A DNA stretch of 41,145 nucleotides, taken from a virus. This document shows, in pieces, positions 4,998-37,264 of the stretch. Position 1 is the first letter of the stretch. Each line of letters opens with the position of its first letter. The notes under the pieces were generated by a model. The model saw nothing but the letters and a program-made list of their open reading frames with translations, did no database searches and was not told where the DNA came from. The translations under genes were made by a program, and so were the position numbers. The DNA lies in IMG/VR virus record IMGVR_UViG_3300048672_000412, positions 1 through 41,145 of that record; one strand, written 5' to 3'.

Positions 4998-6759
4998 CCC
5001 ACGCTACTATCAACAAGAAAGCCACGACAGCGTTATTTCGTGGGTAAAATCAACTGCTGAATCGTGCGTTATTGAATTGCCGACAGGCGCAGGTAAAAGC
5101 GTAGTTGTTGCCATGATTGCAAACACGCTGAATCAAATTAGCAAAGGCAAACACGTTTTGTGCATCGTTCCCAAAAAAGAATTAGTTGAACAAAATGCAG
5201 AAAAACTACGTTTGGTTGGCGGCAAATGCTCGATGTTTAGCGCAAGCGTTGGCGAAACGTGCTTAAAACACGCGCTTGTGGTTGGTACACCTGTTAGCAT
5301 TAAAAACCAGATACACCGATTCGGTGCTAAGTTTTGCGCTGTGATTATTGATGAATGTCACCAGATTACGCCAACGGTAAAAACAATCATCGAATCATTG
5401 CGTGAACACAATCCTAATTTGCGTGTTATTGGTTTATCAGCTACCCCGTACCGTTTAGGCAGTGGTTTTGTGTACGGTATTGATGCAAACGGTAAGGTGC
5501 TAGATGATACGCAAGCGAAAGAGCCTTATTTTAAGCGGCTAGTTTATCGTTTAGAAGCTCGTGAATTGATTGAGCAAGGTTTTCTATCAAATCCAGTCAT
5601 CGGCGCAACCAACGCGCATTATGATACCAGCGGATTGACACTAAATAGAACGGGTAATTTTGACAGCGCAACCGTTGATAAAGCTTTTATTGGCAAAGGT
5701 CGTTTAACATCAAGTATCGTTGCTGATATTGTTGAAAAGTCGCAAGGTCGCAAAGGTGTAATGATATTTGCCGCAACGATTCAGCACGCGCATGAGGTCA
5801 TGGAATCATTACCGCGTGGATTATCGCAAATCGTAACAGGTGAAACACCAGCGAATGAACGAGCTGAAATTTTAGTAATGTTCAAAAGTGGTGGGATTAA
5901 ATATCTTGTGAATGTTTCTGTATTGACTACAGGTTTTGATGCCCCTAATTGCGACACTATAGCTATTTTACGCGCCACTGAAAGCGTGTCATTGCTTCAA
6001 CAGATTATCGGGCGTGGTTTGCGTATTTGTGACGGTAAAAGCGACTGCTTAGTTTTGGATTATGCTGAAAACATCGAAAGGCACTGCCCCGATGGTGACG
6101 TGTTTAATCCTGAAATCAAAGCAAGCGGTGGTGGTGAAGTAGGTGTACCAGTCAAGGCAAAATGCCCTAGTTGTAATGGTGTTAATGAGTTTTCAAAACG
6201 CCGTGACGTTGACGCAGAACAACCAATTGATGATAACGGTTATTTGTTGGATTTAGAAGGTAACAGAATCGAAGTTGAAGGCTTAGGCGCAATGCCAGCG
6301 CATTATGGCAGGCGTTGTACTTTTACAGTTGTGAATCATGGTGTGATTGATAGATGTTCGTATCGCTGGACGTTTAAAGAATGCCTTGAATGCAACCATG
6401 AAAATGATATAGCGGCGCGTTACTGTGCGAACTGTAAAACCGAATTGATTGACCCCAATGACAAGCTAAAACTTGAACACGCGCAAATCAAAGATGCAGC
6501 GGTTTTACAAACAGAAGAATGTTTAGATGTTCAAGTTACACCGACACTAAGCAAAGCAGGTAATGAATGCTTAAAAGTGAAATTCACAACACCTACGCGC
6601 TCGTTTTTGGTGTGGTTTAATAAGTCAACGCCAAAACAAATGTGCTTGCAAATAGAGTTTGAATTGGCACAAAACTTGAGTATCAAAACGGTGACATACC
6701 AGAAAGATAAAACAGGTTTTTTTAAAATTTACGGTTACAACAAAGAGGTTTTGGTGTAA
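4990..6759 (+). CDS. DEAD/DEAH-box superfamily 2 helicase
   Basis: A 589-aa SF2 helicase, probably for replication or recombination. From the ATG at 4990 the motifs are: motif I TGAGKS near residue 34, motif II IIDECHQ near 117, motif III SATPYR near 148, and motif VI QQIIGRGLR near 336. The C-terminal part carries two zinc-ribbon-like elements, CPSCNG and CLECN...CANC. A TTG at 4969 would extend the protein by seven residues. The ATG is preferred because an aggcgg-like ribosome site lies 8-13 nt upstream and it gives a typical 8-nt overlap with the preceding gene. The stop codon overlaps the -10 box of the downstream RNA. Confidence 0.9.
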   Translation: MINPRYYQQESHDSVISWVKSTAESCVIELPTGAGKSVVVAMIANTLNQISKGKHVLCIVPKKELVEQNAEKLRLVGGKCSMFSASVGETCLKHALVVGTPVSIKNQIHRFGAKFCAVIIDECHQITPTVKTIIESLREHNPNLRVIGLSATPYRLGSGFVYGIDANGKVLDDTQAKEPYFKRLVYRLEARELIEQGFLSNPVIGATNAHYDTSGLTLNRTGNFDSATVDKAFIGKGRLTSSIVADIVEKSQGRKGVMIFAATIQHAHEVMESLPRGLSQIVTGETPANERAEILVMFKSGGIKYLVNVSVLTTGFDAPNCDTIAILRATESVSLLQQIIGRGLRICDGKSDCLVLDYAENIERHCPDGDVFNPEIKASGGGEVGVPVKAKCPSCNGVNEFSKRRDVDAEQPIDDNGYLLDLEGNRIEVEGLGAMPAHYGRRCTFTVVNHGVIDRCSYRWTFKECLECNHENDIAARYCANCKTELIDPNDKLKLEHAQIKDAAVLQTEECLDVQVTPTLSKAGNECLKVKFTTPTRSFLVWFNKSTPKQMCLQIEFELAQNLSIKTVTYQKDKTGFFKIYGYNKEVLV

Positions 6760-6762
6760 AAT
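6757..6762 (+). promoter_or_regulatory. -10 box of pseudoknot RNA copy A
   Basis: TAAAAT overlaps the helicase stop codon and lies 8 nt before the conserved TGGTGT that begins the RNA. A 4-of-6 -35 (GTTACA, 6734-6739) sits 17 nt upstream. Confidence 0.5.
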
Positions 6763-6887: not shown

Positions 6888-7547
6888 ATGAGTAAAGCAA
6901 TTGCAATCGTTACTGCAAAACGTAACAAACCAACAACCACATCGTTAATAGTTGCTGAAAGCTGTGGCGTTCAACACAAAAACACAATCGCGTTAATCCG
7001 TAAGTATCAAGCCGATTTTGAAACATTTGCACCACTCGCGTTTGAAACGCTTGTGGTAAAACGTAAGCAGGGCGGAGGTGAAGCAACAGAATATGCGGTT
7101 TTGAATGAATCGCAAGCAACGTACTTGATTACACTATTCAAAAACACTGAAATAGTAAGGGCGTTTAAATTGCGCCTTGTTCAAGAATTTGCAATTATGC
7201 GCGAATCTTTGAGCAATCCAACACGCAATAAAATCATTCAAGACAAACGCGATTCGCATTCATTTATGACTGACAGCTTAATGTTGCATCGCGATTTATT
7301 AGGCATTGAAACAAAAGGCTATCATTATGCGAATGAGAACCTTATTTGCAATTTGGCTTTATGTGGCGAATCAAGACCAATTGAAGAAAGTGAGCTTGAT
7401 AATTACGATGCGTTGTTGTTGCGTAAAATACGCGAAAGAAACGCGCTTTTAATCCAACGTAACATTGATTTTGATGCACGAAAAGAATTGCTGGTTGAGT
7501 TTGCTAATCAGTATCGAACCAAAAAACCACGCTTGCAATTGGTTTAG
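6888..7547 (+). CDS. Rha-family phage regulatory protein
   Basis: A 219-aa protein with an N-terminal Rha-type domain (about 10-105): hydrophobic start, a helix-turn-helix-like segment VAESCGVQHKNTIALIRKY, then YAVLNESQATYLITLF and the helix AFKLRLVQEF. The C-terminal half (about 120-219) is unassigned and ends in a basic segment. Rha proteins are phage regulators that can interfere with superinfecting phages lacking host factors; the role here is inferred. It stands behind its own RNA leader, and a hairpin (7557-7570) follows its stop, so it behaves as a separate cassette inside the early operon. A second Rha-type gene lies at 29765. Confidence 0.8.
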   Translation: MSKAIAIVTAKRNKPTTTSLIVAESCGVQHKNTIALIRKYQADFETFAPLAFETLVVKRKQGGGEATEYAVLNESQATYLITLFKNTEIVRAFKLRLVQEFAIMRESLSNPTRNKIIQDKRDSHSFMTDSLMLHRDLLGIETKGYHYANENLICNLALCGESRPIEESELDNYDALLLRKIRERNALLIQRNIDFDARKELLVEFANQYRTKKPRLQLV

Positions 7548-12340: not shown

Positions 12341-12349
12341 TGTTATAAT
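12341..12349 (+). promoter_or_regulatory. Extended -10 promoter of RNA copy B
   Basis: TGTTATAAT is a perfect extended -10 with no convincing -35. It lies 7 nt before the conserved TGGTGT. Confidence 0.65.
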
Positions 12350-12356
12350 GCGCTTA

Positions 12357-12459
12357 TGGTGTCGTTACCTAAAGTAAGATTTTAAACAAATCCGTTTCTG
12401 ATTTATGCGTGGCTCAAATCTTAGCCATAACGACCGCATAAATTAGAGCGGATTTTTTT
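12357..12459 (+). ncRNA. Five-stem pseudoknot RNA, copy B (before AP2 gene)
   Basis: Same architecture as the copies at 6771 and 29646, with different stem sequences. P1 is GTCGTTA 12361-12367 / TAACGAC 12428-12434. P2 is AAGATTT 12376-12382 / AAATCTT 12416-12422. P3 is AAATCCG 12388-12394 / CGGATTT 12449-12455, then a U run. P4 is GGCT 12411-12414 / AGCC 12423-12426, with the 8-nt loop holding P2 3'. P5 is a perfect 9-bp stem, 12401-12409 / 12435-12443. P1 3' abuts P5 3' directly, as in copy A, suggesting coaxial stacking. Unpaired TGGTGT, CCTAAA and TAAAC are conserved. Confidence 0.87.
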
Positions 12460-12476
12460 ATTGAGTAAAAGTTTTA

Positions 12477-13258
12477 TGGCAAATTTACCATCGCGCGAGT
12501 ATTTACTCGAATGCTTTGATTATGATAAAGAAACAGACACGCTAACATGGCGCAAACGTCCTGCTGAACATTTTAAAAGTGCTAAGTCTTATCGGAAATT
12601 CAATACACAGTTTGCTAATAAAGAAATAAAAGAATCTATAACTATTGGAAAAATAAGAGCAAGGAAATCAAAAGTTATATTCAAAATAGTTAATGGTTTT
12701 GAACCGCCAAGAATGACGCACCAGAAAGGATTTATACAAAAACAGGGCAATTATATTCGCGGAATCTTCAAGTGTGAAAACAAGGTATTTCAAAAATCAT
12801 TTAAAACAGAACCAGAAGCTAAAAACTGGGTAAAAGAAATGCGTATTAAATTTGAAAAAAATAGATTGCCGATTGTAAAAAATAAAAAAGTTTCAAAACA
12901 TGGTTTTCACGGAGTTTATGTTATAAAAGGTATTTTTTATGCTCATATTGGATTTAATAAAGAGTATTATAGAATTAGATGTAATTCAGCAAAAGAAGCA
13001 AGTAACGCTTATCAATTGGCAAAACAACAAATAAAAGATGGTGTTTTTGTACCGCCTAAAAAGTTAATATCAAATACTGGATATAAAGGAGTTAAGGCTG
13101 TTTATGGAGGAAGATTTCAGGCAAGATACAAAGGGAAAAGCGCTGGCACATTCTACACAGCCGAAGAATCGCACGCGGCATATTTAAAAGCTAAAAACCA
13201 TAAAACATTTGACGATGGTTTAGATATTTTGGCTAAACTAGCACAGCAATACGGATAA
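12477..13258 (+). CDS. AP2-repeat DNA-binding protein, HNH-less homing-endonuclease relative
   Basis: A 260-aa protein. The N-terminus LPSREYLLECFDYDKETDTLTWRKRP matches the usual start of phage HNH/AP2 homing endonucleases. The HNH core that normally follows (HR...IDHINGD...N) is missing. Instead there are about three AP2-like or integrase-AP2-like repeats: near 80-120, 142-185 (HGFHGVYVIKGIFYAHIGF) and 200-245 (TGYKGVKAVYGGRFQARY). It may bind DNA without cutting, or represent a decayed endonuclease. The ATG at 12477 is preferred to the TTG at 12461, which falls next to the RNA terminator. A bidirectional terminator follows. Confidence 0.7.
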
Positions 13259-27580: not shown

Positions 27581-27606
27581 AGCCGCCCCACAAAGGCGGC
27601 TTTTTT
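27581..27606 (+). terminator. Terminator of the plus-strand cassette
   Basis: AGCCGCC/GGCGGCT arms enclose a 7-nt loop and are followed by six T on the plus strand. It keeps cassette transcription from running antisense into the MuF gene. Confidence 0.88.
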
Positions 27607-29590
27607 ATTTCTCAATTTTCTTTAATTGTTCAAGCGTGTATTGCTTTCCGCTATCATCAACGAATCTGTCAAGCGTTGTGCCATTCCTAAACATTTCACC
27701 GCGTGCTTTTCCTAAAACTTCATCTTGAAATTCTGGTGATTTTTTAGACAACCATGTTTGATAGGTTTCAGTTTCTGGAATTTGACCGTCAAGGCTGGAG
27801 CGTGTCCCTGCCGTTGGTTCTTTTAAACCTAATTCTTTCCATGACTTCAAAACCGCTGTAACTACTGAGCGACAATTATGTGTTATAATGTTGTTTGCAG
27901 TAAATACATTATCATCACAACCAAGATTATAAACATGACCAGAAAAACTTGTGAAACCAAGCTCAACAACGCTCTCAAAATGCTCAACAACGGGCTTAAT
28001 GCGGTCGAAATCAGCAATAAACTCAATATCGGAACTTCTATTATTTACAGGCTCGCTAAACAGAACGGCATCAATACTAAGCGCATCAATATCAGTGATA
28101 GCATCGATGTTAATGCTGTTTTGGAGTTGTTCAATAAAGGCATTGGCGTTGGTGGCATCGCTAAACATTTCGGCGTATCTGATTCCGCTATCAAAACAGT
28201 TTTCAGAAAAAACGGCATCGCCACACGCAACCGTTCTGAGCAACAACAAGCCAGAATGGACAATACAAGCCCTGAGCAAATCAAATTGCTTACCAGTAAA
28301 GCTAACGCCGCAATGCGTGGTAGAGAAGTGCCGCATGATATGCTTGTTAAACAAGCGGCTGGTAGATTCAGAAATCAAAGTGCTTTGAGTTCGTATCTTG
28401 AAGAAACTTTTGACGTATTGATGCGCGATAAAGGGTATGAAGGAATCCGCCAATTTCAAATCGATAAGTACAACGCTGATTTCGTTTTCGGTAACGTCGT
28501 TGTGGAAATCTTCGGTGGTTGTTGGCACTGGACAGGCACACATCTTGCCCATTCTAAGGATAGAATTAAAACTATTCTCGATGCTGGATTCCATTTGATT
28601 ATCGTTGCCGCTAGAAATGAAGGTGTTTCTTTTGAAACCGCACGCGAGGTTGTCACCCTTATTCAAGAATTTAGCTTGAATGAATCCTCTATCCGTCATT
28701 ATCGGATGATTCGGAGTAACGGTGAGAATGTTATCACCAGAACTTCTAATGACGATGACTTGACCATTGAATGGGCGTTTAGAAATGTAAGAAACACTAC
28801 CACTGGGCGTTACATGAGTGTCAGGTAGCACACATCTAAAATGCAATGGAGGGCGCGGATAAGCTGTAAGCGGATAAACTTGACCATCTTTAGCGCGGCA
28901 TATCGGCGTGGTTCTCATATCCAATGTAGCTACAAATTGAACCGATTTAACCAAATCATCATTCGCCTTGTAAAACTCATCACGCGCGGCATTAGTTGAA
29001 TGTGCAACAGCCGTTAATACTAATGCCTGCGTTTTGGTTCTATTCAAGTGCATAACGCCATCGCTATATTGCAATGCTTTCGTTCCAATTATGCGCCGTG
29101 TAATATCACTATAGCTTGTGCCTTCTATCAAGCCCATTCTAACCGCCGATTGAATTGAATTAAACGATTCGGTATCGAGTTTATCAATCCACTCTTTGAG
29201 CAATTTACCCTGAAAAGGCGTGTCTTCGATTGCTGCAAATAACGTCACAGGTGCAGCCATGACTAAATTTAACTCAATAGGAATAGCGTTTGTTATGGTT
29301 TTATGTTGCCATTCTTGTTCATAAACAGCCGCGTCTTTCATTTCCTGCAACAAGTCGCGCCCCATTAAGTCGTAGCCTTCATTTAAAACCGTGCGTATTG
29401 ATTCTAGTTGTTTATCGACTTGCTTAATAGTTGTATTGCTATCAATATCAAGCGTTTTTAGCTTCAACACTAAATCTTTCTCAACCGTTCGCAATAAATC
29501 CATCACTTTTTTGGTTGTATTGGAGTAATACCGATTTAATAGTATTTCATGTGCAATGGTTTTATCGCGTAATAATTCATTGGATGTCAT
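27605..29590 (-). CDS. MuF-like head morphogenesis protein with intein
   Basis: A 661-aa precursor. Residues 1-252 and 573-661 form a 341-aa MuF/SPP1 gp7-like minor head protein, with VATLDMRTTPICRAKDGQVY and the conserved PPLHFR-CRSVV site. Residues 253-572 are an intein inserted between HFR and CRS, the most conserved motif of the family. Splicing should restore HFRCRS. MuF proteins associate with the portal and help DNA packaging or ejection. The gene lies downstream of the portal but is separated from it by the plus-strand Rha-P63C cassette. It is overlapped antisense by the endonuclease ORF within the intein. Confidence 0.88.
   Translation of the reverse strand: MTSNELLRDKTIAHEILLNRYYSNTTKKVMDLLRTVEKDLVLKLKTLDIDSNTTIKQVDKQLESIRTVLNEGYDLMGRDLLQEMKDAAVYEQEWQHKTITNAIPIELNLVMAAPVTLFAAIEDTPFQGKLLKEWIDKLDTESFNSIQSAVRMGLIEGTSYSDITRRIIGTKALQYSDGVMHLNRTKTQALVLTAVAHSTNAARDEFYKANDDLVKSVQFVATLDMRTTPICRAKDGQVYPLTAYPRPPLHFRCVLPDTHVTPSGSVSYISKRPFNGQVIVIRSSGDNILTVTPNHPIMTDRGFIQAKFLNKGDNLACGFKRNTFISSGNDNQMESSIENSFNSILRMGKMCACPVPTTTEDFHNDVTENEISVVLIDLKLADSFIPFIAHQYVKSFFKIRTQSTLISESTSRLFNKHIMRHFSTTHCGVSFTGKQFDLLRACIVHSGLLLLRTVACGDAVFSENCFDSGIRYAEMFSDATNANAFIEQLQNSINIDAITDIDALSIDAVLFSEPVNNRSSDIEFIADFDRIKPVVEHFESVVELGFTSFSGHVYNLGCDDNVFTANNIITHNCRSVVTAVLKSWKELGLKEPTAGTRSSLDGQIPETETYQTWLSKKSPEFQDEVLGKARGEMFRNGTTLDRFVDDSGKQYTLEQLKKIEK
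27881..27889 (+). promoter_or_regulatory. Extended -10 promoter of the antisense endonuclease
   Basis: TGTTATAAT matches the extended -10 consensus. Read on the other strand, it encodes Ile-Ile-Thr of the intein's conserved ANNIITHN motif. No good -35 is seen. The proposed start ATG lies 45 nt downstream. Confidence 0.6.
27935..28828 (+). CDS. Vsr-like (EDxHD) homing endonuclease, antisense within the intein
   Basis: A 297-aa protein encoded opposite the intein, in exact codon register. Residues 10-45 and 60-95 are two helix-turn-helix units (NAVEISNKLNIGTSIIYRLA; GVGGIAKHFGVSDSAIKTVF). Residues 150-240 form a Vsr-like PD-(D/E)XK nuclease: LEETF (E156/157), YNADFVF (D182), VVVEIFGGCWHW (H198), then D209 and the LDAGFHLIIV strand. 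This fits the EDxHD homing endonuclease class known from introns and split inteins. An in-frame ATG at 27878 would add 19 residues, but it lies on the -10 box, so the ATG at 27935 is preferred. Expression would also yield RNA antisense to the MuF message. Confidence 0.85.
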   Translation: MTRKTCETKLNNALKMLNNGLNAVEISNKLNIGTSIIYRLAKQNGINTKRINISDSIDVNAVLELFNKGIGVGGIAKHFGVSDSAIKTVFRKNGIATRNRSEQQQARMDNTSPEQIKLLTSKANAAMRGREVPHDMLVKQAAGRFRNQSALSSYLEETFDVLMRDKGYEGIRQFQIDKYNADFVFGNVVVEIFGGCWHWTGTHLAHSKDRIKTILDAGFHLIIVAARNEGVSFETAREVVTLIQEFSLNESSIRHYRMIRSNGENVITRTSNDDDLTIEWAFRNVRNTTTGRYMSVR

Positions 29591-29630: not shown

Positions 29631-29638
29631 GGTATAAT
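29631..29638 (+). promoter_or_regulatory. Extended -10 promoter of RNA copy C
   Basis: The segment reads TGGTATAAT (beginning at 29630) 7 nt before TGGTGT. The preceding GATTATGG and following TTG are identical to the promoter of the right-end RNA on the other strand. Confidence 0.65.
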
Positions 29639-29645
29639 TTGTTCA

Positions 29646-29748
29646 TGGTGTGATGACCTAAAAAGAAAATTTAAACAAAGGCATTTCTTAGTATTCGGCG
29701 GGTTCAATTTTCTACCCATCATCACCCGAATTATAAGAATGCCTTTTT
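29646..29748 (+). ncRNA. Five-stem pseudoknot RNA, copy C (before Rha-P63C gene)
   Basis: Third copy of the structured RNA. P1 is GTGATGA 29650-29656 / TCATCAC 29719-29725. P2 is AGAAAATT 29664-29671 / AATTTTCT 29706-29713. P3 is 29677-29690 / 29734-29746 with one bulge, then a U run. P4 is GGGT 29700-29703 / ACCC 29714-29717, changed on both sides from GGCT/AGCC in the other copies. P5 is ATTCGG 29693-29698 / CCGAAT 29726-29731. Again P1 3' abuts P5 3' and P2 3' fills the P4 loop. TGGTGT, CCTAAA and TAAAC are conserved. Confidence 0.87.
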
Positions 29749-29764
29749 TTATTGAGTAAATTTT

Positions 29765-30469
29765 ATGCAAGATTTAATTTTAAGAGATTCAAAAGGCGAA
29801 TTGGTTGTAACTAGCTTAACAATTGCCGATGTTTTTGGAAGACCACACGATGCTGTTTTAAAAAGCATTGATAAAGTAAATAAGCAACTTGTTGATTTTG
29901 CTGGAGAAGTTAAAATTAACTTTTTGAAAGGAAAGTGCGCTAAAGGTATTTCAAACACTCGCACAGCGTATTTAAACGAGCGTCAATTCTTAATGGTGAT
30001 GCCTTTTGTTGGCGGTGAAAAAGCATTGCAAGGGCAGATAAAGCTTGTTGATGAATTTATGCGTTTACGCGCAGCAACAAAAACACTTGAACAACAACGC
30101 CGCGAATTATTACTTGATGCTCCAGATGCGTGGGTAAAATTGTTTGATGAAACGTTTTACACGGCAATCATGCTTTTGCACAATGATACTTTTACGACAA
30201 ATTCAAAAACGCCGATGTATTGCGCTAATATCACTTATCGCCACATTTACAGCGTTGTTTTGGGTCATGAATTGTTGCGCGAATTAAAAGACCGCAAACA
30301 CAGTGAAAAATTGCACCAGTGGTTTAAAGATGGTGGACGTTTAGAGCTTGCAAAACAAATTGAACGAGTAACAATGATTGCGAGAATGTGTGTTAATCGC
30401 AGCGAATTTGAATCTAAATGCGCGATTATGTTTTACGGTAAGCCGCTTCAATTAACTGCTTTTAACTAA
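29765..30469 (+). CDS. Rha-family protein with P63C-like C-terminal domain
   Basis: A 234-aa regulator. Residues 1-95 are a Rha domain: the LTIADVFGRPHDAVLKSIDK helix-turn-helix segment, then TAYLNERQFLMVMPFVGG and the KLVDEFMRLRA helix. Residues 118-225 resemble a P63C domain: WVKLFDETFYTAIMLL, YRHIYSVVLGHELLRELKDR, HQWFKDGG. Such genes are phage antirepressor-like regulators; this role is inferred. The gene lies in a plus-strand cassette inside the minus-strand late operon, behind RNA copy C, and a small hairpin follows its stop as in the other Rha cassette. Confidence 0.8.
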   Translation: MQDLILRDSKGELVVTSLTIADVFGRPHDAVLKSIDKVNKQLVDFAGEVKINFLKGKCAKGISNTRTAYLNERQFLMVMPFVGGEKALQGQIKLVDEFMRLRAATKTLEQQRRELLLDAPDAWVKLFDETFYTAIMLLHNDTFTTNSKTPMYCANITYRHIYSVVLGHELLRELKDRKHSEKLHQWFKDGGRLELAKQIERVTMIARMCVNRSEFESKCAIMFYGKPLQLTAFN

Positions 30470-36505: not shown

Positions 36506-36639
36506 TAAATACCTACTATCTGAGCAAATGACGGTCTGTTATTAACAACAGGATAGCGATAAGCAATGAAATAACCCGTTGCATCTGCCACATGGTCAAA
36601 ACCGCCCTTCTTATCTGGCTCTCCGTTTTTAAATGATTT
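36505..36639 (-). pseudogene. Remnant of a terL 3' end
   Basis: The frame reads KSFKNGEPDKKGGFDHVADA, then YFIAYRYPVV...PSFAQIVGI and TAA. It aligns with the end of the intact terminase (YFIDYEYPII...PSFATIIGI) at amino-acid level and with clear but imperfect nucleotide identity. Its stop overlaps the hub start, so it was the original terL tail. It has lost its gene body and is overlapped by the end of the HNH gene. Confidence 0.85.
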
Positions 36640-37255
36640 CAAATTTATTTCCTTTTTTTGAATTTTCTGACAATGTTAATAATTGTAGGTTATTTTCAAC
36701 GTGCAATCCACAAACCAATTTGCCGTTTAAAGGAATTATATGGTCAACAGTCATATTTAATTCTGTGGCTAATTTATAAAATTCAGCTATCTTTTTTTTA
36801 TCTGCCCAAGATGGCGTGGCTTGTGTTTTTGCGGCGCGGCGTTGGTTAGTGTAAAAGTTTTTTTGATGGCTGTGTGTTTTATTTCTTTCTCTATAGTATG
36901 CGTTTATTTTTTCTCTATTTTCTTCACGAAACTTTCTGCATCTTGCAATAATGACATCTTTGTTTTTTAATCTGTATTTTTCGTTTATTTGTTTGTTTTT
37001 TTCGGGATTGCGCCTTTTCCATTCAGTTTTGTATTTGTTGCATCTTGATGGATTTAATTTTCTTCTTTTTTCTTCATAAACTCGCAAAGATTCTTTGTTA
37101 TTCAAACGCCATTTTTTTGTGGCTATTTTGCTGCATTCTACACAATAATCTGTTTTAATTAAAAATTCGCTTAAATGACCATTTTTGCATGGCATTCCTG
37201 TGAAGTATCTCTTTAAGCCTTGCGACTTTGCATTTTCTTTGCTTATGATTTGCAT
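36629..37255 (-). CDS. HNH homing endonuclease
   Basis: A 208-aa HNH endonuclease. The N-terminus has LKRYFTGMPCKNGH...CVECSK, a zinc-binding module common in phage HNH proteins. A long Lys/Arg-rich helical DNA-binding region follows, then the nuclease motif DHIIPLNGKLVCGLHVENNLQLLTLSENSKKGN with the H, N and H positions. The ATG at 37255 has AAAGGA upstream; TTG at 37262-37264 is less likely. It lies between intact terL and a terL-tail remnant, so it is a mobile gene that invaded the terL end. Homing there is inferred. Confidence 0.88.
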   Translation of the reverse strand: MQIISKENAKSQGLKRYFTGMPCKNGHLSEFLIKTDYCVECSKIATKKWRLNNKESLRVYEEKRRKLNPSRCNKYKTEWKRRNPEKNKQINEKYRLKNKDVIIARCRKFREENREKINAYYRERNKTHSHQKNFYTNQRRAAKTQATPSWADKKKIAEFYKLATELNMTVDHIIPLNGKLVCGLHVENNLQLLTLSENSKKGNKFEII

Positions 37256-37264
37256 TTTTGACAA

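Follow-up and report, generated by a model that had tools for sequence, protein, structure and literature searches.

Why should one phage contig carry the same small RNA three times, each time between a promoter-like box and a gene? The window analysed here, the whole stretch of 41,145 bases in an IMG/VR record of an uncultivated phage, contains three copies (A, B and C), all on the + strand, and a search with the whole-family covariance model R2 returned exactly these three and no others. Each RNA is about 104 nt long and ends in a terminator stem followed by seven or eight U residues, and the start codon of the gene lies 14–16 nt 3′ of the U run in all three copies. The features are as follows.

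6757..6762, +, –10 box of copy A (TAAAAT, one mismatch), 8 nt before the RNA, overlapping the region of the helicase stop codon
6771..6873, +, copy A of the pseudoknot RNA, U8 at its end (R2, 100 bits)
6888..7547, +, gene behind copy A, Rha (Phage_pRha, PF09669, by Pfam), ATG at 6888
12341..12349, +, extended –10 box of copy B (TGTTATAAT), 7 nt before the RNA
12357..12459, +, copy B of the pseudoknot RNA (R2, 100 bits)
12358..12369, +, P0 hairpin of copy B (GG/CC, from the sequence), closing the loop that holds P1a
12361..12367, +, P1a of copy B (GTCGTTA), pairing with 12428–12434
12376..12382, +, pk-a of copy B (AAGATTT), pairing with the inner loop at 12416–12422
12383..12387, +, conserved linker UAAAC of copy B
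12388..12409, +, 5′ strand of P3 and P2 of copy B, 22 nt (20–23 nt across 17 members)
12410..12427, +, inner hairpin of copy B (TGGCT/AGCCA), its loop pairing with pk-a
12428..12434, +, P1b of copy B, flush against the inner hairpin and P2b (P1b–P2b gap 0 in 17/17)
12435..12459, +, 3′ strand of P2 and P3 of copy B plus U7 (12453–12459), an end like that of an intrinsic terminator
12476..13258, +, gene behind copy B, N-terminal part HNH-endonuclease-like (phrog_99, E 9e-16), ATG at 12476
29633..29638, +, –10 box of copy C (TATAAT, extended by TGG), 7 nt before the RNA
29646..29750, +, copy C of the pseudoknot RNA (R2, 92 bits)
29765..30469, +, gene behind copy C, Rha plus P63C (Pfam), ATG at 29765

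An earlier note on this DNA had placed a –10 box 7–8 nt before the RNA in each copy, and the distances are indeed 8, 7 and 7 nt for A, B and C. It had also read P3 with the U run as a terminator; U7–8 directly follows P3 in the sequence of each copy, a terminator-like arrangement, and the shared stretch that it reported before the ATG, TTTTTTTATTGAGTAAA, is common to copies B and C. Its gene labels hold for Rha (A) and Rha-P63C (C), both confirmed by Pfam; the protein behind copy B, which it had called an AP2-repeat protein, is HNH-like by PHROGs and has no Pfam family above the cut-off.

Elsewhere the contig encodes a primase/helicase, Sak4-like, RecE-like, ThyX, portal, head and lysis proteins, and no integrase was found among the contig proteins scanned (part of the ORFs). 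The Mu-F-like head gene (27605–29590, –) has an intein-like insertion with a weak Pfam intein match and is overlapped on the opposite strand by a 316-aa ORF with helix-turn-helix similarity (27878–28828, +); an HNH-like ORF at 36629–37264 (–) adjoins the terminase gene. The hexamer TGGTGT occurs 38 times in the whole contig where 18.8 would be expected, a count reached in 0 of 100 shuffles, and only 3 of the 38 sites are RNA starts.

An RNA family in uncultivated phages

Pattern scans and covariance models applied to IMG/VR gave 20 distinct members from uncultivated phage contigs that were aligned, and 17 members were parsed for geometry. A loose pattern yielded 82 stretches, from which a pairing filter kept L017, L018, L025/L054 and L029/L051; further patterns, one of them anchored on TATAAT, had L236 and L291 among the matches listed, and additional patterns added L272, L342, L347 and L355. 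The covariance model R1, built from 13 sequences, located more copies in the same records (L373, L374, L375 and the weak L379), and a pattern for the L373–L375 subtype led to L405. Two weak members, L346 and L379, were excluded from the alignments. Nearly all raw pattern matches were due to chance and were removed by the structural filter; in a pattern scan of genome contigs, too, nearly all of the matches listed were chance ones. A pattern covering only the linker and the terminator returned L449, L451 and L452, which differ at their 5′-ends and score 52–61 bits with R1. By inspection they have the same P0/P1/pk arrangement and, since neither P0 nor P1 was part of the pattern, they provide an independent test of the fold.

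The relatives are all metagenomic, from collections that may omit records very near the contig. BLAST of the RNA copies against cultured phages gave short chance matches only. Two strict patterns found no cellular copy in 369 gammaproteobacterial and 398 Pseudomonadota genomes, nor did a covariance model search of Pseudomonadota genomes, a weak one in which only 10 candidates per genome were scored. In Rfam 15 no family exceeded its curated gathering threshold (best E 0.33, far below gathering scores; model E-values are rough), and the sole Rfam match among the relatives was a tRNA elsewhere in L291. The RNA forms a structured family that Rfam does not contain.

Fold and geometry

The RNA begins with a short hairpin, P0 (GG/CC), seven loop bases of which pair (P1) with the strand between the inner hairpin and P2. 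In a second pseudoknot, the pk-a strand pairs with the loop of the inner hairpin, which is enclosed by P2 and P3, and P3 runs into U7–8 like an intrinsic terminator. The double pseudoknot includes the terminator stem, a point absent from the earlier note.

Covariation was evaluated for this five-helix structure in three nested alignments. With 7 sequences 95.5% of cells were paired and the covariation score was 0.69 (shuffled mean 0.22); with 13 sequences the values were 92.3% (shuffled 72%) and 0.60 (shuffled mean 0.18), and with 20 sequences 86.7%, a figure lowered partly by misaligned variable 5′-ends, and 0.55 (shuffled mean 0.19). In each alignment the observed covariation was above all 500 shuffles and every slid control; sliding the helix partners collapses the score. 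P1 was paired in 13 of 13 sequences of the second alignment, P0 keeps its pairing while varying in sequence (L374, L375, L449, L451 and L452), and U7–8 directly follows the covarying P3 in all members. The minimum-energy fold computed without pseudoknots already yields P3, P2 and the inner hairpin; z-scores against shuffles, pseudoknots excluded, were –5.4 for B, –3.9 for C and only –1.6 for A.

The geometry is narrowly confined among the 17 parsed members. P1 is 7 bp long in 15 of them and 6 or 8 in the other two, P1b always abuts P2b with zero gap, and 0–1 nt separate it from the inner hairpin. The pk helix measures 5–9 bp, the A-rich linker to P3 4–6 nt, and the distance from the start of P3 to the end of P2a 20–23 nt. 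Unpaired or junction nucleotides (GGUGU, CC and the AAAC linker) are invariant. An RNA family with such clear geometry has a structure that can be solved and tested, and a small natural terminator with its stem in a double pseudoknot would be useful for studying the effect of co-transcriptional folding on termination.

When the helices were modelled as rigid A-form rods, all joints closed with P2 plus P3 of 14 to ~26 bp, not with 30 bp; few restarts were run, and the test is a coarse one of geometry rather than a prediction of structure. The modelling thus indicates that, with helices of the observed lengths, a complete terminator is compatible with both pseudoknots at once, and mutual exclusion of the pk helix and the full terminator, which we had considered, finds no support in it. 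The known helices are all mutually compatible in pairing, with no competing antiterminator pairing among them. Together with the closure of the model, this means that a simple either/or switch would not be forced by the structure. Because no competing pairing was found among the known helices, folding kinetics, the binding of a protein or ligand, or an RNA acting in trans may exert the control, rather than a classical two-state switch.

Promoter-like boxes and the exchange of RNA and gene

A hexamer that matches TATAAT at five or all six positions lies 5–8 nt before the RNA in 16 of 17 members, with an extended TGn at the –10 box in 11. In 14 of 17 the start codon lies 11–16 nt beyond the U run, whatever the gene; the exceptions are L025, cut by the end of the locus, L029, with a nearby ATG, and L355, with a later one. 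At the level of sequence, therefore, the layout is that of an attenuator leader: a promoter-like box, a structured RNA and a putative intrinsic terminator directly before the start codon.

The earlier note had named three types of downstream gene and had proposed a survey of them. The variety that it saw is real, the list incomplete. By Pfam or PHROGs, Rha stands behind A and L236, with L017 just under the curated cut-off; the downstream protein of L054 is 90% identical to the Rha of copy A. Rha plus P63C stands behind C and, assigned by 96% identity, behind L029. AntA is found behind L291, L272 and L375, Bro-N behind L342, GIY-YIG/NUMOD3 behind L018, the HNH-like protein behind B (PHROGs) and RecT behind L449. 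Two DNA methyltransferases complete the assignments, a ParB+N6/N4 methylase (L374) and an MT-A70 (L451), and some downstream proteins have no assigned family.

Comparison of related loci revealed three at which the flank with the promoter-like box is kept while the RNA subtype or the gene is swapped. At the helicase-gene locus, copy A and L374 are 88% identical upstream up to the RNA start and 63% within the RNA, and their genes are unrelated. The locus of copy C and that of L373 share 80% identity upstream and 62% in the RNA, with a different gene behind. At the locus of copy B the RNA is 84% identical to that of L029 and is followed by an HNH-like gene in copy B and by Rha-P63C in L029; the Rha-P63C DNA of copy C is 92% identical to that of L029, where it lies behind a B-type RNA. 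An A-type RNA (92%) with Rha also occurs in L025/L054 with different upstream sequence. Finally, in L416 a Rha with 88% protein identity lies behind an unrelated leader that has its own –10 box, hairpin and terminator, and in which two loops are complementary, CTACCACA and, in the terminator, TGTGGTAG. These swaps at three loci and the L416 leader indicate that RNA and gene are separable modules, not an obligate pair.

Since the fold is kept while the sequence and the attached gene change, the RNA looks like an undescribed, exchangeable gene-control leader. It would provide a concrete route by which phages swap early or accessory genes, in cassettes of promoter, RNA and gene that have defined joints. 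The pk helix may be changing faster than its surroundings: between A and L025, the closest relatives, 6 of 8 substitutions counted by hand (5 by alignment column) fall in it, and three of its base pairs are changed on both sides. This compensated change hints at a change of specificity, in few pairs.

Candidate roles of the RNA

We favour, with moderate confidence, a modular 5′ leader in which the double-pseudoknot terminator ends most transcripts and a fraction controlled by the knot reads into the gene. Transcription would begin at the first conserved base of the RNA, which would fold into the double pseudoknot including the intrinsic terminator hairpin; most transcripts would end at the U run, giving the RNA of ~104 nt, and the rest would read through into the gene, the ribosome site beginning right after the U run. 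The knot would set the read-through fraction and would probably do so in response to a phage or host factor that all copies share; the presence of up to three copies per phage suggests a regulon. From the sequence, the covarying structure, the spacing and the exchange of genes we infer promoter activity, termination and regulated read-through. The attenuator mobilised with varied cassette genes, one of two roles offered in the earlier note, fits the start spacing and the swaps at fixed loci well, and its interpretation as a whole is partly supported.

The spacing would be equally expected of an RNA that is itself the main product, with the gene carried along as a passenger through read-through. 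The main rival, possible though rather unlikely in our estimation, is a trans-acting small RNA: the terminated ~104-nt species would be stable and would act on RNAs or proteins of the phage or the host, the gene being expressed by incidental read-through or being itself a target, as with IsrK. A compact, strongly constrained fold with what appear to be its own promoter and terminator would suit such a role, as would the U7–8 tail, which is suited to Hfq, and the concentration of A versus L025 differences in the pk helix, which could reflect a changing specificity. Against it, the RNA is always directly 5′ of a gene, co-directional with it and at near-constant distance, and rapid pk change is clear in one or two pairs only.

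Antirepressors are already known to be controlled by RNA in P1, P4 and Gifsy-1, and a knotted leader would be another mechanism of this kind. The c4 antisense RNA of P1/P7 and the CI RNA of P4 are short leader RNAs of antirepressor or early operons that control the genes behind them; they undergo processing and find their pairing partners at separate target sites. The present RNA resembles them as a short leader before genes that it would control, whereas its pairing partners all lie inside one compact terminated RNA; no Rfam match to the c4 model was found. The closest worked-out case is IsrK of the Salmonella prophage Gifsy-1. There, a short terminated RNA and a read-through transcript carrying the antirepressor gene anrP downstream jointly control the antirepressor, with an intervening ORF, orf45, and action by opening translation (PMC4825925). 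Like IsrK, the present RNA is a phage RNA with its own presumed promoter and terminator; unlike IsrK, it differs in sequence, is followed by the gene after 11–16 nt and precedes varied gene types. A search of the Rfam families, whether or not these include an IsrK model, gave no match at gathering threshold.

An unlikely extension of the leader reading would treat these RNAs as portable knotted terminators: the conserved fold would serve a phage-wide regulon for one factor, and the fast-changing pk helix would act as a tag, with RNA cross-talk between co-infecting phages. If so, a short RNA made by one phage might recognise another phage's leaders or spare them, and the unrelated L416 and L448 leaders, in which a 5′ loop likewise pairs with the terminator loop, would be further solutions of one kind.

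A metabolite-binding riboswitch, its terminator clamped upon ligand binding, appears improbable. It would account for the invariant unpaired and junction nucleotides, the tight junctions, the terminator-linked pseudoknot and the several copies per genome, yet the downstream genes found so far are for phage DNA-binding, endonuclease, methyltransferase and recombination proteins, none of them metabolic, and the strict patterns gave no cellular copy. In fluoride, preQ1-I and ZTP riboswitches a 5′ pseudoknot is likewise joined to an intrinsic terminator before the start codon; there it competes with terminator pairing, whereas here the knotted fold contains the terminator stem and none of the helices conflict. 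The topology of the Pistol ribozyme was also considered and rejected: relative to the inner hairpin, the partner strand is on the opposite side, and Rfam gave no match.

We regard as highly improbable a plain constitutive promoter with a leaky terminator, the pseudoknot merely protecting RNA ends or insulating the cassette from upstream transcription. The extended –10 boxes, the strong terminator-like end and the lack of a switch partner among the sequences found would agree with it, but the 7-bp P1, zero-length junctions and 20–23-nt spacing, kept across wide divergence, go beyond an insulator's needs. A pair of the type III toxin-antitoxin kind, whose RNA would neutralise the protein encoded behind it, shares the ToxI-type order of promoter, pseudoknot RNA, terminator and gene and is rejected as extremely improbable because RNA and gene exchange independently; the protein changes freely, a near-identical Rha stands behind the unrelated L416 leader, each locus has a single unit without tandem pseudoknot repeats, and no ToxN/AbiQ-like ribonuclease was found among the downstream proteins (Pfam: Rha, AntA, Bro-N, GIY-YIG, RecT and methyltransferases).

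Pairing between a 5′ element and a terminator loop may be generally enriched in these contigs, which is only suggestive, the set being biased towards the family. Upstream of AntA, L418–L420 carry two elements reminiscent of the fold but lacking the U run (R1 16.8 bits, not significant): a GTG[TCTCAG]CAC hairpin, and a GGCGG..CCGCC stem that CTGAGA directly abuts. Terminator-like hairpins before ORFs in L086, L102, L253 and L307 have 7–8 bases in the sequence upstream that are complementary to the loop of the terminator, which may be chance. In sequence-unrelated Rha and AntA leaders (L416, 1370–1515; L448, 1370–1500; L424/L426/L447, 5′ of an AntA match), a 5′ loop or strand pairs inside the intrinsic terminator, with 8/8, 9/9 and ~14 complementary bases, respectively.
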